From the NCBI RefSeq assembly GCF_030369615.1, contig NZ_CP128494.1, positions 1,321,501 through 1,385,500 on the forward strand: a stretch of DNA of 64,000 nucleotides, read 5' to 3'. The notes below the pieces were generated by a model. The model did no database searches. It was not told where the DNA came from and worked only from the letters and a program-made list of their open reading frames with translations. Shown one piece after another: positions 35,308 to 55,772 of this stretch. The stretch's first letter is position 1; each line of letters begins with the position of its first letter. Source of the DNA: Geobacillus stearothermophilus ATCC 12980. GTDB taxonomy: Bacteria; Bacillota; Bacilli; Bacillales; Anoxybacillaceae. The translations under genes were made by a program, and so were the position numbers.

Positions 35308-35532
35308 TATATAGATGCAATTTGAAGATTTACCATTTGCAGCTTTTATCGACTGTCAGGCGACCGAACAACGCCGCTTCCAGCCCCATATATGGGTCTG
35401 TGAAGCAGGTGGTTGTTCGGTCTTCCGTCACGCCTTGGCGTGACGGAGAAGTCTGTGGCTTGCCTTCGACAGTCGAAAATGGACAAACCGCTTTTCTGTC
35501 AAGGATATGTTAAACTTCTTCGTTGCATCTAT
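35308..35532 (+). mobile_element. MITE-like element, family A, copy 1
   Basis: About 225 bases between TATATAGATGCAA and the partly degraded partner TTGCATCTAT. Inside are nested inverted pairs: CGACTGTC/GACAGTCG, ACCGAACAAC/GTTGTTCGGT, the small hairpin CCCATATATGGG, and CCGTCACGCC/GGCGTGACGG. Copies 2 (50254-50492) and 3 (55543-55772, inverted) share most of the sequence. No ORF or transposase is inside, so it would need a transposase in trans. Confidence 0.85.
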
Positions 35533-35764
35533 CCTGAAAACACCATTTAAGATAAAAAAACGGAACCCGCCTAGCCTTCGGAATTTGATTCCAAAGGAGC
35601 GACATTCCGTAGTGCACCAGACTACTGGGGTCCGTCTATATATCGGACTTTTACGTACCATAGATACAACGACCTCATGACCCCAGCTGCAAGGAGACCA
35701 TTCGACAGAAGGTTGTTTTCATCCTTCCGATGGTGACGAAATTTTTTTGTCATGGGAGTCTATA
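35533..35764. other. Gene-free remnant between family A and family B elements
   Basis: About 230 AT-rich bases with no credible gene. Short minus-strand frames lack a ribosome binding site. An inverted pair CCTTCGGAATTTGATTCCAAAGG (about 35574-35596) and palindromic TATA runs suggest debris of a further mobile element. Confidence 0.5.
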
Positions 35765-35883
35765 TATATAAGTTGCAATAAAGATTTTCCGATTGTTCGA
35801 TTCTGTTTTCCTTCATAACAAGTCATTTTGATAGAATGCGGTGGGCGCTCTACTGGATGTAAAACAAAGTTTCAACTTATATA
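35765..35883 (+). mobile_element. MITE-like element, family B, copy 1
   Basis: About 119 bases bounded by TATATAAGTTGCAA and TTTCAACTTATATA (inverted, one mismatch). The left end (AGTTGCAATAAAGATTTTCCGA) and the right end (ATGTAAAACAAAGTTTCAAC) recur with few changes in copy 2 at 56809-56926. There is no coding capacity. Confidence 0.7.
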
Positions 35884-35955
35884 GAATAAAATTATACACA
35901 ACGATGAACGGCGGCTGGGCCCCGCGATCGGAATGGAGAGGAGAGTGGCGCAGAC

Positions 35956-37692
35956 ATGGGGCGGGTGCTGATCTATTTGCGGCCATATGGGAAGTGGATG
36001 GCGTTAGCTTGGTTGTTTATGTTGACCGAGCTCATCATCGAGCTTTGGCAGCCGCTGTTGATGGGGAAAATCATCGACGATGGTGTCATGAAACAGGATG
36101 TTGCGGCCATTTTCACGTGGGGAGCCGTGATGCTCGGGGCGTCGCTGTTGGCGTTTGCCTCAGGCATCGCCAACTCATTTGCCGCAGCCTACGTCGGTCA
36201 GGAGTACGGATTTGCGCTGCGGACGGCGCTGTTTGCCAAAATCCAATCGTTTTCGCTTGCGCGCATCGAGCAGTTGTCGCCGGCCTCGCTCGTCACCCGG
36301 ATGACGAACGATGTGACCCAAGTGCAAAACATGTTGTTTATGAGTTTGCGCATCGCCTTGCGTGCGCCGCTTCTGGTCGTCTTCGGCGTCGCGATGGCGT
36401 TTGTCGTTCATGCGCGCTTGGCGCTCGTTTTGGCGGTGGCTGTTCCTCTGTCCGCTGTTTTTTTATTGTGGGTTGTACAAAAGGCGGCGGCGTCCTTTTC
36501 CGCCGTCCAACGAGCGCTTGATCGCGTCAACGGCGTGATGCGTGAAAATTTGGCCGGCATGCGCCTCATCAAAGCGTGGATGAGAAAAGAATACGAAGAG
36601 GAGCGATTTGCGGCGGCGAACGATGCGCTGATGGAACGGACCATGAGTGTGCTGCGCCTCGTGGAGACGATCACGCCGGTGTTGCTGATCGTGATGAACA
36701 CCGCCATCGTCGCCGTTCTCCTTTTTGGCCGCCACCATATCGAGGCCGGGACGGCGAGCGCTGGGCAAGTCGTGGCTGTCATCAATTACGCCACAAGGAC
36801 GACGGCTGCGTTGTCGATGTTTACATTTATTACGATGGCGTTTTCACGGGCGCGCGCCTCGGCCGCCCGCCTCGCTGAACTTCTTGAAGCCCCGGGCGAG
36901 CGACACGGGGCGGATGCGGGCGGTGGTCCGGCCGTTCAGCGCGGGGAAATTCGCTTTGAGCACGTTTCGTTCCGCTATCCAGACAACGACCTTGACGCGC
37001 TTTCTGACGTATCGTTTGTCATCCGTCCGCATGAGACAGCCGCCATTTTAGGAGCGACAGGGGCCGGCAAATCGACGCTTCTTCAGCTGATTCCCCGGTT
37101 GTACGAACCAAGAGGCGGGCGCGTGTTGATTGATGGCGTCGATGTGCGCGAGTTTTCCGCCGAACAGCTGCGGACGGCGGTGCGCTTTGTTCCGCAGGAA
37201 GTGCTGCTATTTTCCGGAACGGTTGCCGACAACCTTCGCTTCGGCAAGATGACAGCGACGATGGAAGAGATTGTGCAGGCGGCTCGTGATGCGCAAATTC
37301 ATGAAACTATCACTCGGTTTCCGGATGGATACGACGCACGGATCGGTCAAAAGGGTGTCAATTTATCAGGCGGGCAAAAGCAGCGGCTGTCGATCGCCCG
37401 CGCCTTGGTGGGGCAACCGCGCGTTTTGCTTTTGGATGACAGCACAAGCGCGCTCGATGCAGAGACGGAAGCAAAGCTGCTCGCAGCGTTGCGGAAGTAT
37501 GCATGCACGACGGTGATAGTGACGCAAAAGGTGAGCACCGCGATGGCGGCGGATACGATTTTGCTTTTGGAAGACGGCCGCTTGATCGCACAAGGAAGTC
37601 ATGAACAACTGCTGGCGACGAGCGACCTGTATCGACGCATCGTCGCCACGCAGGAAGGAAAGAAGGGATCGGTGGATGTCACTACGGCATAG
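35956..37692 (+). CDS. Heterodimeric ABC exporter, subunit with degenerate Walker B
   Basis: The 578-residue half-transporter has six TM helices (residues 1-300) and an ATPase domain: Walker A GATGAGKST near 365, a canonical LSGGQKQRLS signature near 472, but Walker B LLLDDSTSALD with Asp in place of the catalytic Glu. Its partner (37676) has the opposite pattern, so together they form one working and one non-hydrolysing site. Lengths fit YfiB/YfiC more than BmrC/BmrD of B. subtilis. Multidrug or lipid export is likely. GGAGAGGAG precedes the ATG. Confidence 0.92.
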   Translation: MGRVLIYLRPYGKWMALAWLFMLTELIIELWQPLLMGKIIDDGVMKQDVAAIFTWGAVMLGASLLAFASGIANSFAAAYVGQEYGFALRTALFAKIQSFSLARIEQLSPASLVTRMTNDVTQVQNMLFMSLRIALRAPLLVVFGVAMAFVVHARLALVLAVAVPLSAVFLLWVVQKAAASFSAVQRALDRVNGVMRENLAGMRLIKAWMRKEYEEERFAAANDALMERTMSVLRLVETITPVLLIVMNTAIVAVLLFGRHHIEAGTASAGQVVAVINYATRTTAALSMFTFITMAFSRARASAARLAELLEAPGERHGADAGGGPAVQRGEIRFEHVSFRYPDNDLDALSDVSFVIRPHETAAILGATGAGKSTLLQLIPRLYEPRGGRVLIDGVDVREFSAEQLRTAVRFVPQEVLLFSGTVADNLRFGKMTATMEEIVQAARDAQIHETITRFPDGYDARIGQKGVNLSGGQKQRLSIARALVGQPRVLLLDDSTSALDAETEAKLLAALRKYACTTVIVTQKVSTAMAADTILLLEDGRLIAQGSHEQLLATSDLYRRIVATQEGKKGSVDVTTA

Positions 37693-39478
37693 CCCGCACG
37701 GAGCGCGTGTTGGCGCAAGTGCGCAACGGGCGAAAAACAGCGTCGGCACTTTGCGGCGGCTTTGGGCATTTATCGCTCCGCAAAAGCGAAAGCTGTTTGC
37801 AGCCATGGCCATGGTGATGGCCAGCTCGGCGCTGGCGCTCGCCGGCCCGTACGTCATCGGCTGGGCGGTCGATGGGTACATTGTGGAGCGGAAGACGGAC
37901 GGGTTTATGGCGACGCTCGTTTTGCTTCTTGCCATTTATATGGCCCTTGGCGCGGCGACGTTTTGGCAAAACTACTGGATGATCGATGTCGGCCAGCGGA
38001 CGGTGCGCGGGATTCGCGAGCGGTTGTTTCGCCATTTTCATGAGCTGCCGATTTCGTTTTTTGACCGCCGCCAGCAAGGGGAGCTGATGAGCCGGATTAC
38101 AAACGACATCGACCATATGAGCCAGACATTTAACAGTACTGTTGTCCAGGTCGTCTCGAGCACGTTGACGTTGATGGGCGCGATCGTGGTCATGCTTTTA
38201 CAGAGCGTTGTGTTGACGATCGTAACGCTTGTTGTCGTGCCGCTGATGTATGTAGGCATGCGCTGGATTACAAACCGGACGCGGGTGCGTTTCCATGAGC
38301 AGCAACGGGCGCTCGGAGAGATGAACGGCTTTATCGAAGAGGTCATTTCCGGACAGAAAGTGGTGAAGCTGTTTTCCCAAGAAGAGCGGATGGAGGAGGA
38401 ATTGGCGCGCAAAAATGCCGAGCTGAAACAAGCCGGGTTTTGGGCGCAAACGTATTCCGGCTTTATTCCGAAGCTGATGAACTTTTTAAACAGCGTAAGC
38501 TTCGCTCTCATCGCTGGCGTCGGCGGATGGCTGGCGGCGAAAGGGACGATATCGGTCGGGACGATCGTCGTGTTTGTCGAATACGCCCGCCAGTTTACCA
38601 GACCGCTTAATGACCTGGCCAATCAATGGAACACACTGCTGTCGGCGTTGGCTGGCGCTGAACGGGTGTTGGAAATTTTGGATTTGCCGGAGGAAGAGGA
38701 AGACGAGCGGGAAGCGGTGGCTTTGGACCGTCTTGATGGACGCATTGAGTTTCGTCAAGTCGTCTTTTCTTACGACAAACAGCGTCCGGCGCTCGACGGC
38801 GTCACCTTTTTCATCGCCCCGGGGGAGACGGTCGCGCTTGTCGGTCCGACTGGAGCCGGCAAAACGACCGTATTGCAGCTGTTGACCCGCTTTTACGATC
38901 CGGATGAAGGCGTCATTTTGATCGATGGACGCGACAGCCGGACGATCAAGCGAGCAAGTTTGCGCCGGCATATGGCATTTGTGCTTCAGGATACGTTTTT
39001 GTTCGCCGGAACGATCCGCGACAACATTCGTTACGGCCGGCTTGAGGCGACCGATGAAGAAGTCGAAGAGGCGGCGCGCCAGGCGAACGCCCACTCGTTT
39101 ATTATGAAGCTGCCGAACGGCTATGACACCGTTTTGACCTCGGGAGGAGGCGGGATCAGCCAAGGGCAGCGGCAGCTGTTGGCCATCGCTCGGGCGATGA
39201 TCGCCGACCCGGCCATTTTGATTTTGGACGAAGCGACGAGCAACATCGATACGGTGACCGAAGTGCGCATTCAAGAAGCGCTCGCGCGGCTCATGAACGG
39301 CCGGACGTGCTTGGTCATCGCGCACCGGCTGAACACGATTCAACATGCCGACCGCATCCTTGTGCTCAACGAAGGCAACGTGATCGAGCAAGGGACGCAT
39401 GAAGAACTGTTGGAAGCAAAAGGATTTTACTTCCAATTGTATCAGCGCTATTGGTTGCGCAATGTGCAGCAGGCATAA
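37676..39478 (+). CDS. Heterodimeric ABC exporter, partner subunit
   Basis: The 600-residue half-transporter has six TM helices and an ATPase domain with Walker A GPTGAGKTT near residue 393, a degenerate signature ISQGQRQLL near 495 in place of LSGGQ, and an intact Walker B LILDEATSNID with catalytic Glu. This complements the first subunit. ATG 37676 follows AGAAGGGATC and lies in the last 17 bases of the partner gene. No clear terminator follows. Confidence 0.92.
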   Translation: MSLRHSPHGARVGASAQRAKNSVGTLRRLWAFIAPQKRKLFAAMAMVMASSALALAGPYVIGWAVDGYIVERKTDGFMATLVLLLAIYMALGAATFWQNYWMIDVGQRTVRGIRERLFRHFHELPISFFDRRQQGELMSRITNDIDHMSQTFNSTVVQVVSSTLTLMGAIVVMLLQSVVLTIVTLVVVPLMYVGMRWITNRTRVRFHEQQRALGEMNGFIEEVISGQKVVKLFSQEERMEEELARKNAELKQAGFWAQTYSGFIPKLMNFLNSVSFALIAGVGGWLAAKGTISVGTIVVFVEYARQFTRPLNDLANQWNTLLSALAGAERVLEILDLPEEEEDEREAVALDRLDGRIEFRQVVFSYDKQRPALDGVTFFIAPGETVALVGPTGAGKTTVLQLLTRFYDPDEGVILIDGRDSRTIKRASLRRHMAFVLQDTFLFAGTIRDNIRYGRLEATDEEVEEAARQANAHSFIMKLPNGYDTVLTSGGGGISQGQRQLLAIARAMIADPAILILDEATSNIDTVTEVRIQEALARLMNGRTCLVIAHRLNTIQHADRILVLNEGNVIEQGTHEELLEAKGFYFQLYQRYWLRNVQQA

Positions 39479-39564
39479 CTGTATGGTGTTCACGTTTGTG
39501 GAGGACTTCAGATGAATGCGTGTCTCCTCCATGCGAACTCGAGTGCTCAGGAAAGGAAGAGTGG

Positions 39565-39756
39565 ATGAAAAAAACAATTAAACAAAAATATAAAGATATT
39601 TTGTTAGTCATTTCCGCCGCTTTGTGCTTTACGGCCGGGGCCGATCGGCAAGCCGCTTTTGAAACGTTTCGCGCCAGCTTGCGGATAAGGCCGGATGGCT
39701 GGCGATTTGCTTCATGGCAGCAGCATTGTCGCGCTCATGATAGTAAATGTGATTGA
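39565..39756 (+). CDS. Doubtful short ORF downstream of the ABC exporter
   Basis: ATG 39565 follows AGGAAAGAGTGG. The first about 24 residues (MKKTIKQKYKDILLVISAAL) look like a membrane-protein start, but the rest is antisense to the MOSC gene end and reads as noise. It may be the head of a lost gene. Confidence 0.2.
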   Translation: MKKTIKQKYKDILLVISAALCFTAGADRQAAFETFRASLRIRPDGWRFASWQQHCRAHDSKCD

Positions 39757-40277
39757 TATACGCGATGGACAGCGCCCCCCACGCCCCGTTCGACGAGAAC
39801 GAGCGGCGCGCCCGGCTCTATGACGCCTTCTTGCAAGACGCGGAAATAAAACCCGCTTTTTCCTGTCTGGCAGACGGCTTTCGGCAAATCGGGCAGCTGA
39901 TGTTTGAACGCCAATTTGGAGCACGGCTGGCGCGGCTGCGACACTTGTACGAGCGCTGTGCCGGCGACATAAATGTCGCCAAGACATACATCGTCTTCCG
40001 TCAACCCGAGAAGCGTCCAGTTTTCGCCAAACGCCCCCGCCGTAAATGGGCGGCCGTATCGCTCTTCCCAATAGACGAAATGCTCGGACGGATAGGCGCA
40101 AATCGCTTTATCTTCTCCTCCGTGATGGACGAGGTCGGCTTGTCCATCTCCAGCCAAGTTTTGTTTGCCGACCGCAACGGGATGAGCGACCGGCGTTTTG
40201 TCAATGCCGGTTGTGATCCGCTGGCCGCCGATGTGGAGCGTTTTCGGCTTCCCGACATTAATGGAGAGAATCTGCAT
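39629..40277 (-). pseudogene. MOSC-domain protein (YiiM/YflK-like), frameshifted at a G6 tract
   Basis: From ATG 40277 (after GGGGGTG) the gene encodes a MOSC/3-alpha protein: MQILSINVGKPKTL, HHGGEDKAICAYPSEHFVYW near residue 55, and GAFGENWTLLGL near 85. Near residue 168 a run of six Gs (C6 at 39775-39780) shifts the frame, and it stops at 39735. With five Gs the frame continues as GALSIAYINHIYYHERDNAA to a stop at 39629, giving about 215 residues, close to YflK length. MOSC proteins handle sulfur/molybdenum-cofactor chemistry or 6-N-hydroxylaminopurine detoxification. Confidence 0.85.
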
Positions 40278-40282
40278 CGCGT

Positions 40283-41287
40283 TCACCCCCATACCGCCTC
40301 GGCGATGAGCCGGAAGCTTGCGAGTTTATCCTCGAAGTCGTATGTAATCGTCACGAGCATGATTTCCTCTGTTTCATACGTTTCGCTCAGCCGATACAGC
40401 TTGTCTTTGACGCGCGTCGGACTGCCGACGATCATCCGCCGCCGGTTGTCTTCCACCCGTTTGCGCTCATACGGGCTGTACGGATACGCAGCCGCTTTTT
40501 CCGGGCTTGGCGTGCCGTTCAGCGCCATCCCTTGCTCGATCATAAGAAGCGACAGATCAAGGCTGCCGGCGATCCATTCCGCTTTTTCATCCGTTTCGGC
40601 GCAAATTGCAAACACCGCGACCATTCCGCGCGGCTCGGCCAAATACGGCGATGGAACAAACCGGTCACGGTACAGCCGCATATAATGTTCGCCGCCTTCC
40701 CCGTTGATAAACTGGGCGAACACATACGGCAGCCCTTTATCGGCTGCCAGCTTCGCCGTTTCCGAACTGGAGCCGAGCAGCCATAGTTCCGGCGGGGACT
40801 GCACGATCGGCGTCGCCTTGACGCCATAAAGCGGGTGGACGGGCGGAAGCGCATCGTGCAAATACCCAAGCAAGTCATCGATTTGCTCCCGATAGCGATC
40901 CGCTGAACGCGGCCGGCCGTCTTGGAGCGCCATCGTCGCCCGCGGCATGCCGCCGGGTGCCCGCCCGATGCCGAGATCGACGCGGCCGGGATGAAGGCCG
41001 GCAAGCACATGGAAGTTTTCCGCCACCTTGTACGGGCTGTAATGCGGCAGCATCACGCCGCCTGAGCCGATGCGGATGCGCGACGTTTTCGCTCCGATGT
41101 GTCCGAGCAGCACTTCCGGCGACGAACCGGCAAGGCTGTTTGTATCGTGGTGTTCCGACACCCAAAACCGCTTATAGCCGAGCTGCTCAACGTGTTGGGC
41201 GAGCTTGACGGTGTTCTCGAGCGCTTCTTCTGCCGTCATGCCTTCGGCGATCGGCGACTGGTCGAGGACGCTCAGTTGCAGCGCCAT
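40283..41287 (-). CDS. LLM-class flavin-dependent oxidoreductase
   Basis: The 334-residue luciferase-like monooxygenase has the bacterial-luciferase fold and group signature: LSVLDQSPIAEGMTAEEAL at the N-terminus, YKRFWVSEHHD near 38, GSGGVMLPHYSPYKVAENFH near 74, and LGIGRAPGG near 106. It belongs to the YwcH/YceB-type enzymes that use reduced FMN from a separate reductase. The substrate is unknown. AGGAGGAATCGC precedes the ATG. The MOSC gene starts 5 bases after its stop, so they form an operon. Confidence 0.92.
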   Translation of the reverse strand: MALQLSVLDQSPIAEGMTAEEALENTVKLAQHVEQLGYKRFWVSEHHDTNSLAGSSPEVLLGHIGAKTSRIRIGSGGVMLPHYSPYKVAENFHVLAGLHPGRVDLGIGRAPGGMPRATMALQDGRPRSADRYREQIDDLLGYLHDALPPVHPLYGVKATPIVQSPPELWLLGSSSETAKLAADKGLPYVFAQFINGEGGEHYMRLYRDRFVPSPYLAEPRGMVAVFAICAETDEKAEWIAGSLDLSLLMIEQGMALNGTPSPEKAAAYPYSPYERKRVEDNRRRMIVGSPTRVKDKLYRLSETYETEEIMLVTITYDFEDKLASFRLIAEAVWG

Positions 41288-41384
41288 TGCGATTCCTCCT
41301 TCTTCCGCCGCAGCGGTGGAAATAATGATTAGTTTCTATTATGCGCTGTTTTGCTTCGGTTTGTCCATTCATTTGTCCACCCGC

Positions 41385-41534
41385 CTAGCAAAAAACCGAT
41401 CCGCCGTCGGCGGATCGGCCAATCCCGTCAAGATGCGCGGCAGTGCGGCGATAATAAAACATCGGGTGGGATGCGGGTGGTGTGGCAGCTGGCCCGTACA
41501 CGCGCGGGGTCATGTGTTTATTCATATAAATCAA
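41385..41534 (-). CDS. Small unrecognised protein (49 aa) with overlapping terminator
   Basis: A TTG at 41534 lies ten bases after AAAGGAGG. In-frame ATG codons follow at 41525 and further on. The product (IYMNKHMTPRVYGPAATPPA, then SHPMFYYRRTAAHLDGIGRS) is Pro/Tyr/His-containing and ends in Cys. The last codons run through the stem of a strong minus-strand terminator, which argues for a real transcript. No family recognised. The composition is like small spore-coat proteins, but that is only a guess. Confidence 0.5.
   Translation of the reverse strand: MIYMNKHMTPRVYGPAATPPASHPMFYYRRTAAHLDGIGRSADGGSVFC
41389..41418 (-). terminator. Strong minus-strand terminator
   Basis: CCGATCCGCC pairs perfectly with GGCGGATCGG with a three-base loop, and six Ts follow on the minus strand, overlapping the end of the 49-residue ORF. 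Confidence 0.88.
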
Positions 41535-41608
41535 TGCACAAACGCCTCCTTTCCGTCGTCTATGTGGCATCATATGCCGAGCTGTGCAGTTCGGTTTGGG
41601 CGCTGGAT

Positions 41609-41638
41609 TTGTGACACCCGCCTTCCTTTTGATATAAT
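41609..41638 (+). promoter_or_regulatory. Sigma-A promoter of the thioredoxin-like gene
   Basis: TTGTGA and a perfect TATAAT are separated by 18 bases. The -10 ends about 32 bases before the start codon. Confidence 0.75.
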
Positions 41639-41669
41639 GAAAGAAAATATTGGAGAAAGGGTGTTGTTG

Positions 41670-42233
41670 ATGCCAGCTGTCGAATCGAACATGTTTCCCC
41701 TCGGCAAACAAGCGCCGTCGTTTTCCCTCACGAATGTCATCGATGGCAACGTCGTCCGTCTTGAGGATGTGAAATCGGACGTCGCAACCGTCATTATGTT
41801 CATTTGCAATCACTGCCCATTTGTCAAGCATGTCCAGCACGAGCTTGTTCGCCTCGCGAACGATTATATGCCCAAAGGGGTGTCGTTTGTCGCCATCAAC
41901 TCCAACGATGCGGAACAGTATCCAGAAGATTCACCCGAAAACATGAAAAAGGTGGCGGAAGAGCTCGGCTATCCGTTTCCGTATTTGTACGATGAGACGC
42001 AAGAGGTGGCGAAAGCATACGACGCCGCTTGCACCCCGGACTTTTACATTTTCGACCGGGATCTGAAATGCGTCTACCGCGGCCAGTTGGACGACTCGCG
42101 CCCGAACAACGGCATCCCGGTCACCGGGGAGTCGATCCGCACCGCGCTGGATGCTTTGTTGGAGGGCCGCCCGGTGCCGGAAAAGCAAAAGCCGAGCATC
42201 GGCTGCAGCATTAAATGGAAACAAACACTGTAA
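41670..42233 (+). CDS. Thioredoxin-family (AhpC/TSA-like) protein
   Basis: The 187-residue cytoplasmic protein has the peroxiredoxin/TlpA fold: MFPLGKQAPSFSLTNVIDG, then TVIMFICNHCPFVKHVQHEL with a CNHC redox motif near residue 45, and the cis-Pro region ACTPDFYIFDRDLKCVYRGQ. No signal peptide or TM anchor is present, unlike ResA-type proteins. It is probably a disulfide reductase or peroxidase of unknown substrate. GGAGAAAGG lies about 9 bases before the ATG. Confidence 0.88.
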   Translation: MPAVESNMFPLGKQAPSFSLTNVIDGNVVRLEDVKSDVATVIMFICNHCPFVKHVQHELVRLANDYMPKGVSFVAINSNDAEQYPEDSPENMKKVAEELGYPFPYLYDETQEVAKAYDAACTPDFYIFDRDLKCVYRGQLDDSRPNNGIPVTGESIRTALDALLEGRPVPEKQKPSIGCSIKWKQTL

Positions 42234-42241
42234 CAATGTGC

Positions 42242-42270
42242 TTGACTTTTCATTGTGAAGCGGGTATGAT
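42242..42270 (+). promoter_or_regulatory. Strong sigma-A promoter
   Basis: TTGACT and TATGAT are separated by 17 bases. A hairpin with T tail follows within about 75 bases, before the next gene. Confidence 0.7.
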
Positions 42271-42276
42271 GGAAAA

Positions 42277-42349: not shown

Positions 42350-42492
42350 GTGGCCGCGATCTACTGAACAAATTCACACTGGCGCCGCCTCGGAGCGGCA
42401 AGGATGGATGAGAGGAAGGGCTTCCATTGTTTTTGTTTCCTTTCCTTGAGTTTTCGTAATTTATGTTATGTAAACAAAAGGAGAACGAGGAG

Positions 42493-42882: not shown

Positions 42883-42889
42883 CATCTAG

Positions 42890-42935: not shown

Positions 42936-42953
42936 CATGAATATGAAAACGGT

Positions 42954-42970: not shown

Positions 42971-42998
42971 AAAATACAGAAAAATTGCTAAAAAAGTG

Positions 42999-48235: not shown

Positions 48236-49146
48236 CCAAACAGGTGACGTTAGCGGTCAAAGAGCTGCGGAAAACGATTCGCGGCAAGGAAATTATTAAA
48301 GGCATTTCGTTTGAGTTGCATGAGGGGGAAGTATTCGGTTTTTTAGGGCCGAACGGCGCGGGAAAAACGACAACGATCCGCATGCTCGTCGGGCTCATTC
48401 GGCCGACGTCGGGGACGGTGGCGATTTGCGGGTATGATCTTCACCGCCAGTTTACCGACGCGATCCGCCAGATCGGCTGCATCGTCGAAAACCCAGAAAT
48501 GTATCCGTATTTAACAGGATGGGAAAACCTTGAACATTTCGCCCGCATGATACCGGGAATTGGTGCAGATCGGATCATGGAAGTGGCGAAGCTCGTCGGC
48601 CTTGAACAGCGCATCCATGACCGAGTGGGCACGTATTCGCTCGGCATGCGGCAGCGGCTCGGCATCGCTCAGGCGCTGCTTGGAAAGCCGAAGGTGCTCA
48701 TTTTGGACGAGCCGACCAACGGCCTTGACCCGGCCGGCATTCGCGAAATGCGCGCCTTCATCCGCTTTTTGGCGGAAACGGAAGGGTTGAGCGTCCTTGT
48801 TTCATCGCATTTGTTAAGTGAAATTCAATTAATGTGCGACCGCGTCGCCATTATGGCGAAAGGACGGCTCTTGGCCGTGGACACGGTTGAGCGGCTGTTA
48901 AACCAACAGGCGCGCGTCGTCTGGAAAGCCGCTCCAACGGATCGGGCGCGGGCGCTGTTAGCGGCGGAAACCGAGGTGTTGCGCGCCGATGAAGAGACGA
49001 TCGTCACGCCATATGAGCCGTCGAGACTAGCCGCTTGGAACGCCAAGCTTGTCCAAGCCGGCGTCTCGGTTTCGGAAATTGAACCGCGGCTGCCGACGCT
49101 CGAGGACTTGTTTATCGAGCTGACAGGGGGCGAAACGATTGAGTAA
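48232..49146 (+). CDS. ABC transporter ATP-binding protein (BcrA/YhcG-like)
   Basis: The 304-residue ATPase has Walker A GPNGAGKTT near residue 42, signature YSLGMRQRLG near 136, Walker B VLILDEPTNGLD near 154, and the H-loop SSHLL. The C-terminal about 80 residues are the ABC-2-associated domain. GGAGGGTGAGCA precedes the ATG. It overlaps the GDSL gene and the permease gene, so the three form one operon. Bacitracin-type self-resistance or lipid export is a family-level guess. Confidence 0.92.
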   Translation: MTKQVTLAVKELRKTIRGKEIIKGISFELHEGEVFGFLGPNGAGKTTTIRMLVGLIRPTSGTVAICGYDLHRQFTDAIRQIGCIVENPEMYPYLTGWENLEHFARMIPGIGADRIMEVAKLVGLEQRIHDRVGTYSLGMRQRLGIAQALLGKPKVLILDEPTNGLDPAGIREMRAFIRFLAETEGLSVLVSSHLLSEIQLMCDRVAIMAKGRLLAVDTVERLLNQQARVVWKAAPTDRARALLAAETEVLRADEETIVTPYEPSRLAAWNAKLVQAGVSVSEIEPRLPTLEDLFIELTGGETIE

Positions 49147-50119
49147 GCTCGTGTATAATGAAATGTTGAAAATCGTCCGCAAAAAGCGGCTATGGGTGAT
49201 CGCCGCCATCATTGTGGTGCTCGTCGCCTTGTTTACATACGCCCAATACCGCGAGACGGAAGAGTTGAGAAAACGGCTTGGCACGACCGACTGGCGGACG
49301 CAGCTGCAGCAGCAAATCGTCGATTTGCAAAACCGCTTGCAGTCGCCGAGCATGTCTGAGGAATGGCAGAAATACTTGCAAATCCGCCTCAAGCAGCAGC
49401 AGTACTACTTAGAGCACAACATTAATCCGTCCGCCCCTGGAGCGCCGACGTTTATGCGCACGTTTATCGAAAACGCCATCGACTTGTTTTTGCCGCTTTT
49501 AGTGATGGTGGTTGCGGCCGATTTAGTGTCGTCCGAGGCAAGCGCTGGAACGATCAAGCTGCTTCTCGTTCGGCCGGTGAAGCGGTGGAAAATTTTGTTG
49601 AGCAAATATATCGCGTTGCTCCTGTCGGTGTCGCTCATTATGCTGATGGCGGCGGTGCTGTCGTATGCCATCTCCGGACTCGTGTTTGGATATGGCGGCT
49701 TCCGTCTGCCGCTATTGACCGGATTTGTCCAGCAAGGAGAGGATCTCAATACAGCGAATGTCCACATGATTCCGCAATGGAAATACATTTTGATCGAGCT
49801 CGGGCTGGCAGCGTTTGTGAGCGTTGTCGTCGGCACACTGACGTTTATGTTTTCCGTGCTGCTTAGGAGCACGGCGGCGGTGATGGGCATCATGCTGGCA
49901 GCATTGATTTCTGGCGCGATTTTGTCGAACATGGTGTCGTCGTGGCATTCGGCAAAATATTTGTTTATGGTCAATTTGCGGCTGACGGATTACATAAAAG
50001 GAGCGGCTCCGCCGATTGAGGGGATGACGCTTGGCTTTTCGATGGCCGTGCTGGCTGTCTGGGGGCTTGCAGGGCTTCTTGTCGCTTTTTTTGTCTTTAT
50101 GCGGCGAGATGTCTATTGA
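49139..50119 (+). CDS. ABC-2 type transporter permease
   Basis: The 326-residue membrane protein has a TM near residue 18, an external helical segment rich in Gln (LQQQIVDLQNRLQSPSM, about residues 60-90), and five more TM helices from residue 115 onwards. This is the ABC-2 permease plan. It starts with TTG 49139 inside the ATPase gene end. A terminator follows the stop. Confidence 0.88.
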   Translation: MSKLVYNEMLKIVRKKRLWVIAAIIVVLVALFTYAQYRETEELRKRLGTTDWRTQLQQQIVDLQNRLQSPSMSEEWQKYLQIRLKQQQYYLEHNINPSAPGAPTFMRTFIENAIDLFLPLLVMVVAADLVSSEASAGTIKLLLVRPVKRWKILLSKYIALLLSVSLIMLMAAVLSYAISGLVFGYGGFRLPLLTGFVQQGEDLNTANVHMIPQWKYILIELGLAAFVSVVVGTLTFMFSVLLRSTAAVMGIMLAALISGAILSNMVSSWHSAKYLFMVNLRLTDYIKGAAPPIEGMTLGFSMAVLAVWGLAGLLVAFFVFMRRDVY

Positions 50120-50136
50120 AAACGGCAGAGCGGCGA

Positions 50137-50170
50137 AAACCTGAGGGGGTGTTCCCTCGGGTTTTTTAGT
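50137..50170 (+). terminator. Rho-independent terminator
   Basis: AAAACCTGAGGG pairs with CCCTCGGGTTTT and is followed by TTAG. It closes the GDSL-ABC operon. Confidence 0.88.
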
Positions 50171-50187
50171 GAAAGGGGATGAAATGC

Positions 50188-50938
50188 CTATCTATTCGGC
50201 TGCTTGTCGTGAACGCCGGCGAGTCCAAGCGCGTGATGGCCCCGCAGCAACTGTATAGATGCAATTTAAAGCTTTAACATTTTTCGTCTTTGCCGGTCAT
50301 TGCATCCGACTGTCGAGTGACCGAACAACGCTGCTTAAAGACCCATGAATGGGTCTGTGAAGCGAGTCGTTGTTCGGTCTTCCGTCACGCTAAGGCGTGA
50401 CGGAGGCAAGCCACACGCTTGCCTTCGACAGTCGAAAATGGGCAAACCACTTTTCTGTCAAGGATATGTTAAACTTCTTTGTTGCATCTATATGCTCCAC
50501 GGCCGGCCATTGCTGTTCATCGCAACGGATGAGAAGCACGATCCCATTCGGTATGGAAGAGATCGGCGCATCTTCGCGGTCGGCGAGCAAATACAGCTTG
50601 TTCATGTCGACTGAGCCGCGGTAGCTGTCCCAAATGCTGTACATGTAGATGGCCACATAAAACATGAGCCATCGTTCGTCAAGAACGGCTTTTGCCTTTT
50701 CAAAATCGCCAAGCAGCGAGTATAATATACCTGTATTGATATGGGCTTTTGTGTTGATAAACAGCTCCCAGAGGATTAACATAAAGGCCGTGGCGTAGCG
50801 TTGCTGCATCAAATTGCCGAAACCCGGAAACGAAAAGGAAAAAAAGGCGACGACAAGCGGATGACGCAAATGGAAATGGGTGGTTGTCAATTGCGACAAA
50901 TGCGCCCGTTTGCGCCGCGCCGGCGGAATGAGTTTCAC
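50188..50938 (-). pseudogene. Unknown membrane-associated protein interrupted by a family A element
   Basis: From GTG 50938 (after GGAAAGGGGG) the frame encodes a basic head, a hydrophobic stretch (LVVAFFSFSFPGFGNLMQQR) and a soluble part up to WPAVEH, about 149 residues. Element copy 2 enters there. Beyond it the same sense reads QLLRGHHALGLAGVHDKQPN and stops at 50188, which looks like the native C-terminus. Without the element the protein would be about 170 residues. I do not recognise the family. Confidence 0.7.
50254..50492 (+). mobile_element. MITE-like element, family A, copy 2
   Basis: About 239 bases from TATAGATGCAA to TTGCATCTATA. All internal stems of copy 1 are present with changed loops: CGACTGTC/GACAGTCG, ACCGAACAAC/GTTGTTCGGT, AGACCCAT/ATGGGTCT, CCGTCACGC/GGCGTGACGG, plus GGCAAGC/GCTTGCC. 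It splits the minus-strand gene at 50188-50938. Confidence 0.88.
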
Positions 50939-51068
50939 AAAGCGCCCCCTTTCCTTTACACGGTTGCTGTGTTTTTAGTAGTAGAAAAAAAGGAGCGGCA
51001 GCTATGCAGGTCGTTTCAGAAAAAAGATCAATTTTCATCCGTTATGGCGAAAAAAAGATAAAAAAACT

Positions 51069-51097
51069 ATTGACTTTCCTTTGAGGTTCATATAGAA
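51069..51097 (+). promoter_or_regulatory. Promoter of the tRNA cluster
   Basis: TTGACT and TAGAAT are separated by 17 bases, 33 bases before the first tRNA. Confidence 0.75.
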
Positions 51098-51129
51098 TAT
51101 GAATTGTCGCAAGGTAAACCAGCATATGT

Positions 51130-51206
51130 CGGGAAGTAGCTCAGCTTGGTAGAGCACACGGTTCGGGTCCGTGAGGTCGCAGGTTCAAATCCTGTCTTCC
51201 CGACCA
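51130..51206 (+). tRNA. tRNA-Pro (anticodon CGG)
   Basis: A 77-base cloverleaf: acceptor CGGGAAG/CTTCCCG, anticodon stem CACGG/CCGTG with loop TTCGGGT (anticodon CGG, reads CCG), T-arm GGTTCAAATCC, and encoded ACCA end. It is first of three tRNAs. Confidence 0.95.
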
Positions 51207-51216
51207 TTATAGACAT

Positions 51217-51289
51217 GGGGCCTTAGCTCAGCTGGGAGAGCGCCTGCCCCGCACGCAGGAGGTCATCGGTTCGAATCCGATAGGCTCCA
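51217..51289 (+). tRNA. tRNA-Ala (anticodon CGC), C at position 33
   Basis: A 73-base cloverleaf: acceptor GGGGCCT/AGGCTCC including the G3:U70 alanine identity pair, and anticodon stem CCTGC/GCAGG with loop CCCGCAC. The anticodon is CGC (reads GCG). Position 33, which is U in almost all tRNAs, is C here. CCA is not encoded. The T-arm GGTTCGAATCC is normal. Confidence 0.88.
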
Positions 51290-51298
51290 TTTTCATAC

Positions 51299-51388
51299 GG
51301 AGGAATACCCAAGTCTGGCTGAAGGGGGCGGTTTCGAAAACCGCTAGGGGTGTCACAGCCCGCGGGGGTTCGAATCCCTCTTCCTCCA
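51299..51388 (+). tRNA. tRNA-Ser (anticodon CGA)
   Basis: A 90-base class II cloverleaf: acceptor GGAGGAA/TTCCTCC, anticodon stem GCGGT/ACCGC with loop TTCGAAA (anticodon CGA, reads TCG), a long variable arm, and T-arm GGTTCGAATCC. CCA is not encoded. Confidence 0.95.
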
Positions 51389-51434
51389 TTTCTAATATCC
51401 ATCCTGTCAAATTGTAAATCATGAACCCCTTGAT

Positions 51435-51460
51435 ACGACTGCGTTGGCAGTCGTTTTTTC
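51435..51460 (+). terminator. Terminator of the tRNA cluster
   Basis: ACGACTGC pairs perfectly with GCAGTCGT, followed by TTTTTC. Confidence 0.88.
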
Positions 51461-51586
51461 ATTTTTTCGGAATCCTTTTGACTTTTCTTCAAATCTTTTA
51501 ACATGTTCAGCGTCTTATCATCAATCGTAATCGTTCGTTTCGAATCGAAAACACCGTCTCGATGGCATCTTTTTTTTTGAATTTAT

Positions 51587-51605
51587 GTATATACTATGTA
51601 TATAC
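51587..51605 (+). promoter_or_regulatory. Double palindromic operator of the MazEF-like operon
   Basis: Two copies of the self-complementary octamer GTATATAC are spaced by TAT, an 11-base period that puts both on one face of the helix. They overlap a TATACT -10-like element, and autoregulation by the antitoxin-toxin complex would fit. Confidence 0.6.
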
Positions 51606-51660
51606 GAAATGAAAGGAGAGAGGTATAGTGGAATTAAACAAACAGAAAGGAGTGTCAATC

Positions 51661-51897
51661 ATGACAATAACAGTTCAAAAATGGGGAAACAGCCTTGCGG
51701 TTCGTATCCCAAGCGTGATTGCTGAACGTTTAGCGCTTCATCAAGGATCAGAAGTGGAGGTGATCGTTGAGAACCAAGCGATCAAGTTGATCCCGAAAAA
51801 GAAAAAGCCGACATTGGAGGAACTTTTGGCTAAAATCACGCCGGAAAATCGCCATGCTGAAATTGATTTTGGAACAGAAGGGAATGAATTGTTCTGA
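51661..51897 (+). CDS. mazE: MazE-like antitoxin (AbrB/SpoVT fold)
   Basis: The 78-residue protein starts with the swapped-hairpin DNA-binding fold (MTITVQKWGNSLAVRIPSVI, then RLALHQGSEVEVIVENQAIKL) and ends with an acidic tail that would wrap the toxin. ATG 51661 follows AAAGGAGTGTCAATC. An upstream in-frame GTG at 51628 also has a good site and would add 11 residues. Stop and toxin start overlap (TGATG). Confidence 0.92.
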   Translation: MTITVQKWGNSLAVRIPSVIAERLALHQGSEVEVIVENQAIKLIPKKKKPTLEELLAKITPENRHAEIDFGTEGNELF

Positions 51898-52226
51898 TGC
51901 AAGCGCCGGATCGTGGGGATCTTGTTTACGTCAATTTCAATCCACAAGCAGGGCATGAGCAGGCAGGAAAAAGGCCCGGCATCGTTCTATCACCAAAGCG
52001 GTTCAATCAATTGACAGGGTTTGCGGTGCTTTGCCCGATCACCCAGCAACAAAAAGGATATCCATTTGAAGTGGAATTGCCATCAGGCTTGGCCGTTGAA
52101 GGCGTGATTTTAACCGATCAGGTCAAAAGTTTAGATTGGCGCGCCCGACAGCTTCAAATAGTAGGACGGGCGCCCAATGAAGTTGTTTCGGATTGCTTGG
52201 ATCTGATTCATACTTTTCTTTCGTGA
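51897..52226 (+). CDS. mazF: MazF/PemK-family mRNA interferase toxin
   Basis: The 109-residue protein has the MazF SH3-like fold: DRGDLVYVNFNPQAGHEQAG, the catalytic Arg in GKRPGIVLSPK near residue 26, the ITQQQKGYPFEV loop with Thr near 49, and ILTDQVKSLDWRAR near 75. It cuts mRNA at short sequence motifs. Its ATG overlaps the antitoxin stop. The pair lies next to the tRNA cluster, a frequent site for acquired modules, and resembles plasmid PemIK/ChpBIK-type systems more than the Bacillus NdoAI/NdoA pair. Confidence 0.93.
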   Translation: MQAPDRGDLVYVNFNPQAGHEQAGKRPGIVLSPKRFNQLTGFAVLCPITQQQKGYPFEVELPSGLAVEGVILTDQVKSLDWRARQLQIVGRAPNEVVSDCLDLIHTFLS

Positions 52227-52357
52227 AAGGCCATTTATATTGGCCTTTTGTTCACTTTTAGCATACTTTTTGCGTACATTTTTGCCCTTCACGCTCCTTG
52301 AGGCGGGAGACTTCCTTCGGATGTTTTGTTAAAAAGGCAGAATCGAGCAACGAAAAG

Positions 52358-52380
52358 AAGGCGGATCGTCCCGCTTTTTT
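52358..52380 (+). terminator. Weak terminator after mazF
   Basis: GCGG pairs with CCGC, followed by six Ts. The stem is short. The gap 52227-52439 holds nothing else I can support. Confidence 0.4.
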
Positions 52381-52439
52381 GCATGGATTGACACACTGGA
52401 GATTATTTTGCACAAATGCTGTTTTTCAGCCGCCACAAC

Positions 52440-52613
52440 CGCGGCGAGGAAACGGAGCTAAACGTGACCGCCCGCGAAAAACTCCGCCTTCTTCTTTATG
52501 CCGGCGAGCCGGTGAACGAACCGGTCGTCGCCTACGGGCCGTTCGTCATGAACACGCCGGAACAAATCCGCGAGGCGATTCGCGATTACCAGGAAGGGCG
52601 GTTTGGGCGATAA
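52440..52613 (+). pseudogene. Pirin C-terminal fragment
   Basis: The frame encodes KLRLLLYAGEPVNEPVVAYG, then PFVMNTPEQIREAIRDY and GRFG, the typical end of the pirin C-terminal cupin domain. Pirins are about 230-290 residues, and the N-terminal metal-binding cupin is missing. The ATG at 52416 is fortuitous, without a ribosome binding site. A 5' truncation is the simplest reading, possibly caused by arrival of the tRNA/MazEF segment. Confidence 0.78.
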
Positions 52614-52708
52614 TGGAAGGGAAAGAGCCGATTCGTTGTATGGCTCTTTCTTTTTTGTTATCATGTTCACAAAAAGAAGCCGTTGGGTTGTTCAAGGAGG
52701 ACATAGTC

Positions 52709-53458
52709 ATGAACCAAGTCATCGAAACGATTCTCCAGCACCGTTCGATCCGCCGGTTTGAAGACAGGCCGCTCACGGATGAACAAATCCGCACGATCGT
52801 CGAATGCGCCCAGGCGGCATCCACTTCAAGCTATGTTCAAGCGTACTCGATCATCGGGGTGAAAGATCCGGAGAAAAAACGGAAGCTCGCCGAGTTGGCG
52901 GGAAATCAATCCTATGTCGAGCATAACGGCCATTTCTTTGTCTTTTGCGCTGATTTTCACCGCCATGAGCTCATTGGCGAGCTAGAAGGAAAAGACGTGC
53001 TTCCATCGCTTGAGAGTACGGAAAAGTTTATGGTTGCGCTGATTGACACGGCGCTTGCGGCGCAAAACGCCGCCATTGCCGCGGAGTCGATGGGGCTTGG
53101 CATCTGCTACATTGGCGGGCTGCGCAACAACTTGCCGGAAGTATGTGCGCTGCTAAATGTGCCGAAGCGGGTCATTCCGCTGTTTGGGCTTGCCGTCGGC
53201 TATCCTGCACAAACGCCGGATCAAAAGCCGCGGTTGCCGTTTGAACACGTTTATCATGAGGACGAATACAACCAAGACCGCGCCCGATTCCTCGAACAAT
53301 TGCAACGCTACAACGAAACGGTTTCGGCGTATTATGAGCAGCGGACAAACGGCCGCCGCCGCGACACATGGACCGGGCAGATGGCCGATATGCTCAGCCG
53401 CCAAGTCCGGATGTACATGAAGGAGTTTGTGGAAGGGAAAGGGTTCAATTTACGGTAG
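52709..53458 (+). CDS. nfsA: Oxygen-insensitive NADPH nitroreductase / FMN reductase
   Basis: This 249-residue flavoenzyme belongs to the NfsA/FRP group: VIETILQHRSIRRFEDRPLT (FMN phosphate contacts), CAQAASTSSYVQAYSII near residue 39, GLGICYIGGLRNN near 135, and FGLAVGYPAQTPDQKPRLP near 160. Its length equals NfrA1 of B. subtilis. It reduces nitro-compounds, quinones or free FMN with NADPH. AAGGAGGACATAGTC precedes ATG 52709. Confidence 0.92.
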   Translation: MNQVIETILQHRSIRRFEDRPLTDEQIRTIVECAQAASTSSYVQAYSIIGVKDPEKKRKLAELAGNQSYVEHNGHFFVFCADFHRHELIGELEGKDVLPSLESTEKFMVALIDTALAAQNAAIAAESMGLGICYIGGLRNNLPEVCALLNVPKRVIPLFGLAVGYPAQTPDQKPRLPFEHVYHEDEYNQDRARFLEQLQRYNETVSAYYEQRTNGRRRDTWTGQMADMLSRQVRMYMKEFVEGKGFNLR

Positions 53459-53531
53459 CCTCGCTGCAGGCGGGAGCCCCCAGCTCCCATTCCCGAAGTC
53501 CAAGAGGTTCGTAAGAAAGGAGAGAACGAGA

Positions 53532-54275
53532 GTGGACAAAATCCGGCAACTGGCGCAATGGATCAAAGAGGCGAATACAATCGCCGTCCTGACCGGGGCC
53601 GGGATGAGCACGGAGTCTGGCATTCCTGATTTTCGCAGCGAAAACGGCCTTTACGCCCAAGAGGACCATGTCGAATATTATTTGTCAGAGCATTATTACA
53701 AAAAAGATCCGATTGATTTTTGGCGTCGATTCAAGCGGATGTTTTCATTAAAAATGATGGGCGGCTTTGCCCCGAATGACGGGCATCGGTTTCTCTGCTG
53801 GCTTGAGGAGATGGGCAAGACGGTGACGATTTTGACGCAAAATATTGACGGGCTGCATACGAAAGCAGGAAGCACGAATGTCATTGAGCTGCACGGCACG
53901 CTGCAGACGGCGACATGCCCGTCATGCGGCAACAAGTATGATCTGTCGTTTATCAACCGTCACGAGGTGCCGCGCTGTGAAAAGTGCCAGACGATTGTCA
54001 AACCGGATGTCGTTTTGTTTGGCGGGCTCGTGCCGCGCATGGAAGAAGCGTTTGCTGCGGCGGCCGCCAGCGACTTGCTTCTGGCGATGGGAACAAGTTT
54101 GGAAGTGGCGCCCGCGAATCAAATCCCGTTTTATGTCGCCGCCGAATCGCCGGCAACAAGGAAAGTATTGATCAACAAAACAGCGACAAGAATGGACGGG
54201 ATGTTTGACCTTGTCATTTATGGCGGAATCGGGGAAACGGTCGCTAGCGTGCGCAAGCAAATACAGGCGGAATAG
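53532..54275 (+). CDS. srtN: NAD-dependent protein deacetylase (sirtuin)
   Basis: The 247-residue enzyme removes acetyl groups from lysines using NAD+. Motifs: GAGMSTESGIPDFRS near residue 21, TQNIDGLHTKAG near 103, catalytic His in ELHGT near 120, the zinc site CPSC and CEKC near 130-155, and MGTSLEVAPAN near 195. The start is GTG 53532 after AAGGAGAG. The length matches SrtN of Bacillus. A decayed permease gene follows. Confidence 0.95.
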   Translation: MDKIRQLAQWIKEANTIAVLTGAGMSTESGIPDFRSENGLYAQEDHVEYYLSEHYYKKDPIDFWRRFKRMFSLKMMGGFAPNDGHRFLCWLEEMGKTVTILTQNIDGLHTKAGSTNVIELHGTLQTATCPSCGNKYDLSFINRHEVPRCEKCQTIVKPDVVLFGGLVPRMEEAFAAAAASDLLLAMGTSLEVAPANQIPFYVAAESPATRKVLINKTATRMDGMFDLVIYGGIGETVASVRKQIQAE

Positions 54276-54284
54276 ATCGATAGA

Positions 54285-54977
54285 TTCCATGACACGAAAG
54301 AAATGCCGATCGTCGCATCGATGGCGGCGGTCGGGCTGCTTGGCGTCTTGATGGAGCGGCTCGTGTTTTATCCGCTTCGCGACGCATCGCCGCTCCATGA
54401 CAAAATTGCGGCGATTGGCATTTTGTTGTTTTTGGAGGCATTCGCCCAGTTCGTCTGGGGGCGGACTATCAGACGATGCCGACTCCGTATGGCGATGTCG
54501 TCACGTTGTTCGGATTCACATTGACCATTCAACGCATCCTCATCATCGCATCCGCTGTCATCATCATGATCTTGTTTACCTCTTCTTGAAAAAGACGTTC
54601 ATCGGGTCTTCCATCATCGCGATGGCGCAAAACCGCGAAGGGGCGAATTTGGGCGGCATTAACACGAATAAAGTCGCCATGCTGACGTTTTTCCTTTCCG
54701 GCAGTTTGGCAGCGCTCGCCGCGTCGCTCGCTTCGCCGATCAACCTTGTGTTTCCCGGCATGGGGCATCTCGTCATCTTGAAAGCGTTTGGCATCATCAT
54801 TCTCGGCGGCATGGGAAGCATTCCCGCGCCATTGTCGGCGGCTATATTTTGGGATTCAGCGAAAGCTTGGGAGCGACGTATGTGTCGAACGACTACAAAG
54901 ACATTATCGCTTTTGCCATCCTCGTCATCATTTTAACGGTCAAACCGAACGGACTGTTTGCCAAGGAGGGACATTGA
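54285..54977 (+). pseudogene. Branched-chain amino acid ABC permease (LivH), multiply frameshifted
   Basis: Three consecutive frames encode LivH pieces: [20 protein letters not shown] up to about 54460, then [20 protein letters not shown] to about 54585, then KKTFIGSSIIAMAQNREGAN through GIIILGGMGSIP at about 54828, and again another frame for SLGATYVSNDYKDIIAFAIL and KPNGLFAKEGH. At least three frameshifts are present and the N-terminal about 55 residues are missing. The gene is clearly dead. Confidence 0.85.
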
Positions 54978-55105
54978 TGGCTGTATTCGCCAACCGGCGC
55001 TTATGGATCGCCGTTCTTGCGGCGCCGGCTGACATCGTTCGCATTATGACGTTTTTTGATTCGTTAATGATAGAATTGCCGCCTGGAAGCACTGTTTCGG
55101 GTTGA
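54977..55105 (+). pseudogene. LivM start fragment
   Basis: ATG 54977 overlaps the LivH stop (TGATG) and AAGGAGG lies before it, as for a livM gene. Only the first about 16 residues (MAVFANRRLWIAVLAAP) look native, and the frame then runs into unrelated sequence and stops at 55105. It is a truncated second permease of the same operon. Confidence 0.6.
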
Positions 55106-55248
55106 TCAATTCTTATTGTGTACTTATTATCATAAAAAACTATGTTCTAAATAATCAAATAAACAAATAGAAAAATTTTCAATAATGAAATAAAATAAAA
55201 CTGCCCTGCCACATGATGAATCTAATCACAGGAGAGGAGAGACCGACC

Positions 55249-55530
55249 ATGCGGGAAATGGCCCTCGGCCTTGCCGCCTCGTTCTTTTTTGCCGTTACGT
55301 TCATATTGAACCGGTCTATGGAACTAGCTGGCGGGAGTTGGACATGGAGCTCGTCACTTCGTTTTTTCTTTATGGTTCCGCTGTTGTTTGTCATTCTTCT
55401 TGCCCGCCGCAATCTCGGTCCGGTTTGGCGCGACATGAAGCGCCATCCATGGACATGGATCGTCTGGGAGACGGTCGGTTTCGGCTGTTTCGAAGGCCCA
55501 GCCTTCGTATCGGGTGGAGGGAGAGCGGTG
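55249..55530 (+). pseudogene. EmrE-like (PF13536-type) efflux transporter, N-terminal part only
   Basis: ATG 55249 follows GGAGAGGAGAG. The frame encodes GLAASFFFAVTFILNRSMEL, SSSLRFFFMVPLLFVILLAR and HPWTWIVWETVGFG, the first three TM helices of a ten-helix multidrug efflux transporter of about 300 residues. After that the sequence loses likeness (CFEGPAFVSGGGR) and element A copy 3 begins at 55543. The first about 80 residues are native. The rest was deleted or displaced. Confidence 0.7.
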
Positions 55531-55542
55531 AAAACGAGCATC

Positions 55543-55772
55543 TATATAGATGCAACGAAGAAGTTTAACATATCCTTGACGGAAAAGCGGTTTGTCCATT
55601 TTCGACTGTCGAAGGCAAGCCTATGGCTTGCCCCGTCACGCCAAGGCGTGACGGAAGACCGAACAACCACCTGCTTCACAGATCCATATATGGGTCTGTG
55701 AAGCGGCGTTGTTCGGTCGCCTGACAGTCGATAAAAGCTGCAAATGGTAAATCTTCAAATTGCATCTATATA
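55543..55772 (-). mobile_element. MITE-like element, family A, copy 3 (inverted)
   Basis: 230 bases bounded by perfect 13-base ends TATATAGATGCAA and TTGCATCTATATA. Read on the minus strand it follows copy 1 almost throughout, with the same stems and the hairpin CCGTCACGCC/GGCGTGACGG. It is the best-preserved copy at its ends. Confidence 0.9.

Follow-up and report, generated by a model that had tools for sequence, protein, structure and literature searches.

An IS630-type miniature element of Geobacillus stearothermophilus with a cloverleaf core that recurs between unrelated transposon ends

The definition of miniature inverted-repeat transposable elements (MITEs) usually rests on their ends, and the interior is treated as filler. 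Among the described systems, the Correia elements have TATAG-type ends, which resemble those of the element discussed here. That element, which we call family A, is present in three copies in a 64,000-nucleotide stretch of the Geobacillus stearothermophilus ATCC 12980 genome (contig NZ_CP128494.1, positions 1,321,501 to 1,385,500 of the forward strand; "the window" below), and its interior is conserved with compensatory changes and is present between different ends. The best overall explanation, to which we give a probability of about 0.6, is that family A is an IS630-type MITE whose portable cloverleaf core is selected during propagation.

Judged by described features, RUP and Correia appear to be the nearest kin of family A by type. 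The available portions of the literature present RUP of Streptococcus pneumoniae as a 107-bp repeat with 108 copies, often near insertion sequence (IS) elements (PMC2229807, PMC3049150). Like family A, RUP is short and non-coding and has IS630-like terminal repeats, being linked to IS630-Spn1; its targets are TA (PMC2229807, PMC3049150), which in family A is the duplication at two of the four resolved insertions; unlike family A, and again by description, it is 107 bp long and is credited in those portions with no core that is independent of the terminal inverted repeats (TIRs) and common to different transposon types. The Correia/NEMIS elements of Neisseria share with family A the character of a MITE with TA at the termini, and Correia transcripts are structured (PMC2229807). 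They differ in that RNase III cuts the transcripts at the TIRs (PMC10969869), and the excerpts on which this comparison by description draws mention no cloverleaf. BOX of streptococci is built from modules, shows MITE traits and is predicted to have secondary structure, but according to the same kind of excerpt its boxA-B-C repeats differ in their ends, may lack boxB or carry it several times, and do not amount to a fixed four-stem core (PMC3049150). For bcr1 of the Bacillus cereus group, the source in its available part reports mobile-element traits and a conserved predicted structure, as in family A, with a length of 147-167 bp and another host group as the differences by description (PMC2267715). 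No published description of the family A element was found in titles or abstract openings, with ISfinder and most subscription papers lying outside the search.

The first-pass annotation of the window had reported three dispersed palindromic copies with common inverted ends, and all three are present in the sequence. The limits used here run between the terminal repeats; the earlier ones were wider, taking in the flanking TA. With at most one mismatch, TATAGATGCAA has six matches in the window, one at each copy end, where 0.55 are expected and 0 of 100 shuffles reach six. The stems named earlier (CGACTGTC/GACAGTCG, GACCGAACAAC/GTTGTTCGGTC, CCGTCACGCC/GGCGTGACGG and a small CCCAT/ATGGG hairpin) were found, as was an additional fourth stem, GGCAAGCC/GGCTTGCC, which is degraded in copy 1. 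The small hairpin reads CCCATATATGGG in copy 1, CCCATGAATGGG in copy 2 and CCCATATATGGATC in copy 3, where one arm is thus altered. The fold energy of copy 1 is -101.3 kcal/mol, compared with -59.0 +/- 3.8 for shuffled sequences (z -11.3). In window coordinates, the features are:

35310..35532, + strand: family A copy 1, very probably an IS630-type MITE; repeat B adjoins its right end
35310..35320, + strand: copy 1 left terminal inverted repeat, TATAGATGCAA
35523..35532, + strand: copy 1 right terminal inverted repeat, its last base (A) lost at the junction with repeat B
35349..35477, + strand: copy 1 cloverleaf core, matched by covariance model R1 (G000:C1:1356849-1356977)
35350..35357, + strand: copy 1 P1 5' arm, CGACTGTC
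35362..35372, + strand: copy 1 P2a 5' arm, GACCGAACAAC
35412..35422, + strand: copy 1 P2a 3' arm, GTTGTTCGGTC
35425..35446, + strand: copy 1 P3 hairpin, CCGTCACGCC/GGCGTGACGG
35467..35475, + strand: copy 1 P1 3' arm, CGACAGTCG
50254..50492, + strand: family A copy 2; empty site in relatives CAAC-TG-CTCC, target site duplication TG
50306..50436, + strand: copy 2 cloverleaf core, R1 match (G000:C1:1371806-1371936)
55545..55770, - strand: family A copy 3, inserted within a gene of EmrE type; site empty in two relatives
55601..55731, - strand: copy 3 cloverleaf core, R1 match (G000:C1:1377101-1377231)

Copy 1 does lie behind gerKB: a Spore_permease (GerKB-type) gene has its stop codon 12 bases ahead of the start given earlier for the copy. 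The two copies said to sit in broken genes are copies 2 and 3: reading frames enter both and terminate within them, both sites are empty in relatives, and of these frames the one at copy 3 alone matches a Pfam family (EmrE).

Outside the window, the genome of ATCC 12980 (the own genome) brings the family to 28 places, 22 of them full length and six partial or split, where a match counts as full length if it starts no later than query base 4 and reaches base 225, and places are grouped from match rows. The full copies measure 223-240 bp, have the ends TATAGATGCAA/TTGCATCTATA and contain no transposase gene. A search of Geobacillus genomes, as the first-pass annotation had proposed, found the element by BLAST with copy 1 in 14/14 same-genus genomes, the own one included; outside the genus, it was found in 6 of the 11 family genomes searched and in 0 of 16 from other families of the order. 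For ten own-genome insertions the flanks were joined and searched in the 14 same-genus genomes, and the fetched loci were aligned for five of them. The site of L011 is empty in 3/3 loci (GGTC-TA-CATG), that of L014 in the single locus obtained (1/1; AAGC-TA-GCAT), that of L016, which is window copy 2, in 5/5 (CAAC-TG-CTCC), and that of L003 in 10/10, with an exact TG in 6. L009 has one diverged empty site (L128) and a second locus, L134, that is unreadable; window copy 3 is absent in two relatives, where local alignment shows a diverged junction. All 4 resolved insertions (4/4) have a 2-bp target duplication, which is TA in L011 and L014 and TG in L003 and L016, and each target is C-TA or C-TG with G or C as the next base. 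The usual target duplication of IS630 is TA, at a CTAG target, and TG is unusual. The empty sites in relatives thus define the element as TATAGATGCAA...TTGCATCTATA with a 2-bp duplication.

The same sites bear on whether the copies could be a transcription terminator or a fixed part of genes. Copy 1 stands just behind a gene and the hairpins are strong, as a terminator would require, yet A's, not T's, follow P1 on either strand of copy 1, the copies occur in both orientations relative to genes, and sites empty in relatives are the opposite of fixed positions. The outcome that the first-pass annotation had named as refuting, fixed positions with no empty sites, was not observed. On account of the empty sites we rejected this candidate, which is very improbable.

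Several further observations concern the surroundings of the copies. Repeat B, which begins with CCTGAAAACACC, occupies window positions 35533-35766, its far end being estimated from the match, and lies directly against the right end of copy 1. Of the 28 own-genome places, 10 have a B-type start adjoining a family A end; repeat B also exists in a short form of 108 bases, which has 15 matches in the own genome. Where family A copies stand head to tail (L004 1501-1964; L089; L092), the pair has a common TATA at its junction, as though one copy had inserted at its partner's end. In L024 (1222-1500), a family A copy is split by a non-coding piece, part of which recurs in these genomes and which we take to resemble an IS200/IS605-type remnant. 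A lone ATAGATGCAA lies at own-genome position 883456.

A source of transposase for family A is suggested by its ends, TATAGATGCAATTTGAAGCTTTAAC and TATAGATGCAACGAAGAAGTTTAAC. Matches to DDE_3 (PF13358) occur in 14/14 same-genus genomes, the own one included, several of them in an IS of ~1.19 kb flanked by TA. The search for a full-length IS with the same ends, also proposed by the annotation, led to the IS630-family copies L172, L174 and L177 of the own genome, which are ~1.19 kb long with ends such as TATAGATGCACCTTGAAAAGTTAAC; L172 and L177 each have two frames, one for an HTH_33 protein and one for a DDE_3 protein. Compared beyond TATA, the left end of family A agrees with the best of four own-genome IS630 ends at 16/21 bases, a value reached by 0 of 100000 shuffles, and the right end at 14/21, which in its two forms was equalled by 57 and 69 of 100000 shuffles. 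Ends nearer still to this IS type (TATAAATGCACATTGAAGTGTTAAC, 23/25 with L152) are found in L069 and L070, from plasmids of Anoxybacillus amylolyticus, and in L198 (G048). Since the ends match those of an IS630-family IS in the own genome, we regard family A as an IS630-type MITE, very probably moved in trans by IS630-family transposases of the same genome, with transposition itself deduced from these sequence comparisons. The earlier impression that the copies look like MITEs is therefore well founded in the terminal repeats, the 2-bp duplications, the empty sites and the matching IS. The core was not found inside the IS630 copies L172, L177, L162, L152, L142 and L246, and the sole core match in L174 is an adjacent family A copy. 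In the IS630 copies examined the core is thus missing, which makes it a feature of the short elements.

The core is a 131-nt interior that consists of a closing stem, P1, and three hairpins, P2 (in two parts), P3 and P4. Covariance model R1 matched 34 of the 41 genomes of the family, in 9/9 genera, at E <= 1e-4, three of these genomes reaching only 4e-5 to 6e-5. In a sample of 299 genomes of the order, model R2 matched at least 10, nine in this family and G170 in another, a lower bound given the strict filters and the 11 candidates scored per genome. A pattern scan of genomes, which is not a census, returned at least 120 stretches, 80 of them listed; among the matches listed are Thermolongibacillus altinsuensis and several Anoxybacillus species, and the 30 listed stretches from outside the expected taxa gave 0/30 core matches at E <= 0.1. 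In G016 there are 43 core matches at E <= 1e-3. All seven G016 copies inspected (7/7) differ from family A in most stem letters, yet single-sequence folding gives the same four stems, as it also does for L191, L198 and L219; these separate folds of distant copies are independent of the covariance model. Sequence similarity connects the cores in steps: the score is 155 for A and g8 (best shuffle 27), 62 for A and G170 (best of 500 shuffles 24) and, with the best of 1000 shuffles in brackets, 44 (25) for g8 and G016, 64 (26) for G016 and L211 and 61 (26) for g6 and G170. Direct alignments are not significant for A and G016 (24 against a best shuffle of 27), G170 and G016 (23 against 24) or g8 and L211 (30 against 35).

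Two kinds of unusual locus were seen. A core without recognisable transposon ends stands at what is apparently the same site in G055 (L211, 1501-1636) and Anoxybacillus calidus (L346, 2025-2160). Conversely, L044 (1373-1493) is a family-A-type element whose core is cut to a single CGACAGTCG, and the 81-bp G170 element L450 is reduced likewise. A phage origin was considered and rejected: phage records contain no match to copy 1, and two patterns found 14 viral contigs, of which L429 and L431 have ordinary copies and the remaining 12 have no core at E <= 0.1.

Covariation of the stems, which the first-pass annotation had suggested examining, was assessed on alignment A4 (30 rows, fitted to R2). 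Compensatory, two-sided changes are present in 40/56 pairs, against 24.0 +/- 2.3 in shuffled and 11-19 in slid controls, and in 192 cells, against 54.2 +/- 6.7 shuffled and 23-51 slid, with 90.9% of cells paired; such counts can be inflated by kinship among the sequences and by fitting the alignment to the structure. A4 was made from 29 supplied loci, with L290 left out below the threshold of 1e-8, and replaced A3, which had included partial matches on the opposite strand.

In G170, the cores are flanked by GGCTGTTTTCGTAAACTTTGTTGCTTT on one side and, on the other, by a right arm that ends in AAGCAACAATCTTTTAGAAAAGAGCC, an end type (GGCTSTTTTC) whose pattern, at <= 3 mismatches, has 328 occurrences in the genome versus 0 for the reversed control. 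The 30 G170 loci reduce to 22 distinct elements with both ends, and their 8-bp flanks are identical in 10, differ by one base in 9 and are out of register in 3; nine of the 22 are near full, at 190-198 bp. The G170 core is homologous to the A core, and the end arms are not, 4/4 arm comparisons lying inside the shuffle range. The same genome also holds one copy with IS630-type ends (L264 = L291). In G016, the ends are close to another IS630 type, represented by an end of L142 (an IS of G011), with agreement at 19 and at 18 of 23 positions and no equal among 100000 shuffles; agreement with the ends of its own IS630, L246, is lower, at 17 and 15 of 23. An ISL3 transposase, suggested by a likeness to ISL3-type ends, was rejected as the owner of the G170 ends, as such ends are absent from 4/4 loci examined (one of G170, three of G016). 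The presence of the same core between unrelated ends that duplicate 8 bp indicates, at the level of sequence, that the core is portable across transposon types and not bound to one transposase.

A simpler view would be that the interior is passive. In this case family A would be an ordinary IS630-type MITE that is palindromic by chance, its stems would seem conserved because the copies descend from a few recent masters, and two-sided changes would arise by template switching in the hairpins. It is true that MITEs often have stem-loop interiors, as the available part of one source notes (PMC2229807), that the P1 arms are near-palindromic, that single-arm remnants exist (L044, L450) and that many G170 elements are internally deleted. 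Counts that bear on it come from the Geobacillus set, in which 106 matches gave 89 distinct near-full copies and 86 were counted after leaving out L069, L070 and L049; 40 of the regions behind the set were picked for divergence, which makes it a non-random sample. Per 1000 bases, the terminal repeats have 27 shared variants, the core stems 46, the side arms 94 and 144 and the core loops 281, whereas private mutations number 9.1, 6.3, 7.2 and 9.0, and 2.7 in the same classes. Of 59 private stem mutations, 42 break a pair, 16 give G-U and 1 keeps Watson-Crick pairing. Private mutations thus strike the stems at about the rate seen elsewhere and shared variants avoid them, which means that resting copies are unprotected and amplifying lineages keep the stems, nearly as well as they keep the terminal repeats. 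The decay of resident copies without structural constraint is what a passive interior would give. The roughly six-fold higher density of shared variants in loops than in stems, a pattern that the private mutations lack, argues against it, as do the R1 matches in nine genera, the like folds of the 7/7 G016 copies despite differing stem letters, and the retention of the core between two unrelated sets of ends. We therefore consider a passive interior unlikely, and selection of the fold in amplifying lineages, not in copies already resident, probable from these counts.

The annotation had offered a hairpin substrate or a structured RNA as readings of the interior. Its fold is genuine and is found again in other genera, where compensatory changes accompany it; the part of the suggestion that concerns a resident RNA fared less well. 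Such a cloverleaf would be transcribed from neighbours or alone, would be processed, for example by RNase III, or bound by protein, and would benefit the element or the host. Covariation of the stems is expected under this view, the end-less core of L211 (G055) has a counterpart at an apparently orthologous site in Anoxybacillus calidus (L346), and Correia and BOX are transcribed, with RNase III processing or effects on neighbouring mRNA reported or proposed in the portions at hand of the sources (PMC2229807, PMC10969869, PMC3049150). However, G-U pairs show no excess over A-C mismatches in the 20 active copies (39 vs 36) or in the 86 Geobacillus copies (197 vs 196, or 79 vs 127 without four polymorphic pairs), resident copies shed pairs freely, and at 78 places, by rough open reading frame calls, the core lies in sense to the genes that read into it 38 times and in antisense 49 times, the left gene lying on the core strand at 38 and the opposite strand at 40. 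Rfam has no match to the family A element at gathering score in the window, and on five loci, with E up to 5, 0/9 matches reach the family cut-off, for which reason a known RNA family was rejected. Taken together, the lack of G-U excess in active copies, the loss of pairs in resident ones and an orientation skew that is at most weak favour a DNA fold in transposition, so that the fold more likely acts as DNA during propagation than as a resident RNA, and a structured RNA of this kind is improbable.

How a selected DNA fold could serve propagation is a matter for conjecture. The likeliest mechanism that we can offer, itself doubtful, is extrusion of the core, either as a cruciform or as DNA hairpins. 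Extrusion would remove ~130 stiff base pairs from the path between the ends, and the shortened path would let the transposase pair both ends of a very short element. The effect would help with any transposase and would require Watson-Crick pairing on both strands. We tentatively extend this to a 131-nt transposon-agnostic DNA module that may hitch-hike between unrelated ends, IS630-type and 8-bp-duplicating, with extrusion making short elements competent for transposition; the core would then be the unit of selection and the terminal repeats would be exchangeable. If the fold does help transposition, it offers a handle on how elements of less than ~250 bp join stiff DNA ends and outnumber their parent IS. 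It also carries a warning, namely that a covarying repeat without G-U bias can stem from DNA and is not automatically an RNA gene.

A number of observations weigh against a portable core selected as a fold. The covariation counts come from an alignment fitted to the structure, and in the unfitted first alignment, A1, the RNAalifold covariation term is +0.4, which is no support, with two-sided changes in 8/30 pairs; A1 misaligns the P2 tip in distant copies and was succeeded by A2/R2, with the structure taken from the consensus fold. G016 is tied to A by model score and via other copies, not by direct sequence alignment. In G170, 13/22 elements are internally deleted (78-177 bp) and are without part of the core, and the same deletion junction is found in L436 and L441, which may mean that shortened forms are mobile as well or that deletion recurs at short repeats. 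The loop class comprises 18 columns only, with 4 private mutations. In the 18 diverged copies G-U exceeds A-C by 99 to 60, as a structured RNA would have it, with strand and alignment chosen by the model, which favours G-U; the division into active and diverged copies was made by eye. The right-hand gene points towards the element, on the strand opposite to the core, at 49/78 places, and is on the core strand at 29, a weak skew that the RNA view could use.

Rfam also matched other features of the window: a 6S RNA, a BsrC match and three tRNA genes, at 17629-17817, 42354-42440 and 51130-51388. Beside copy 3, at 55888-55958, there is a weak match to a group II intron fragment (Rfam 34.1 bits, cut-off 32).

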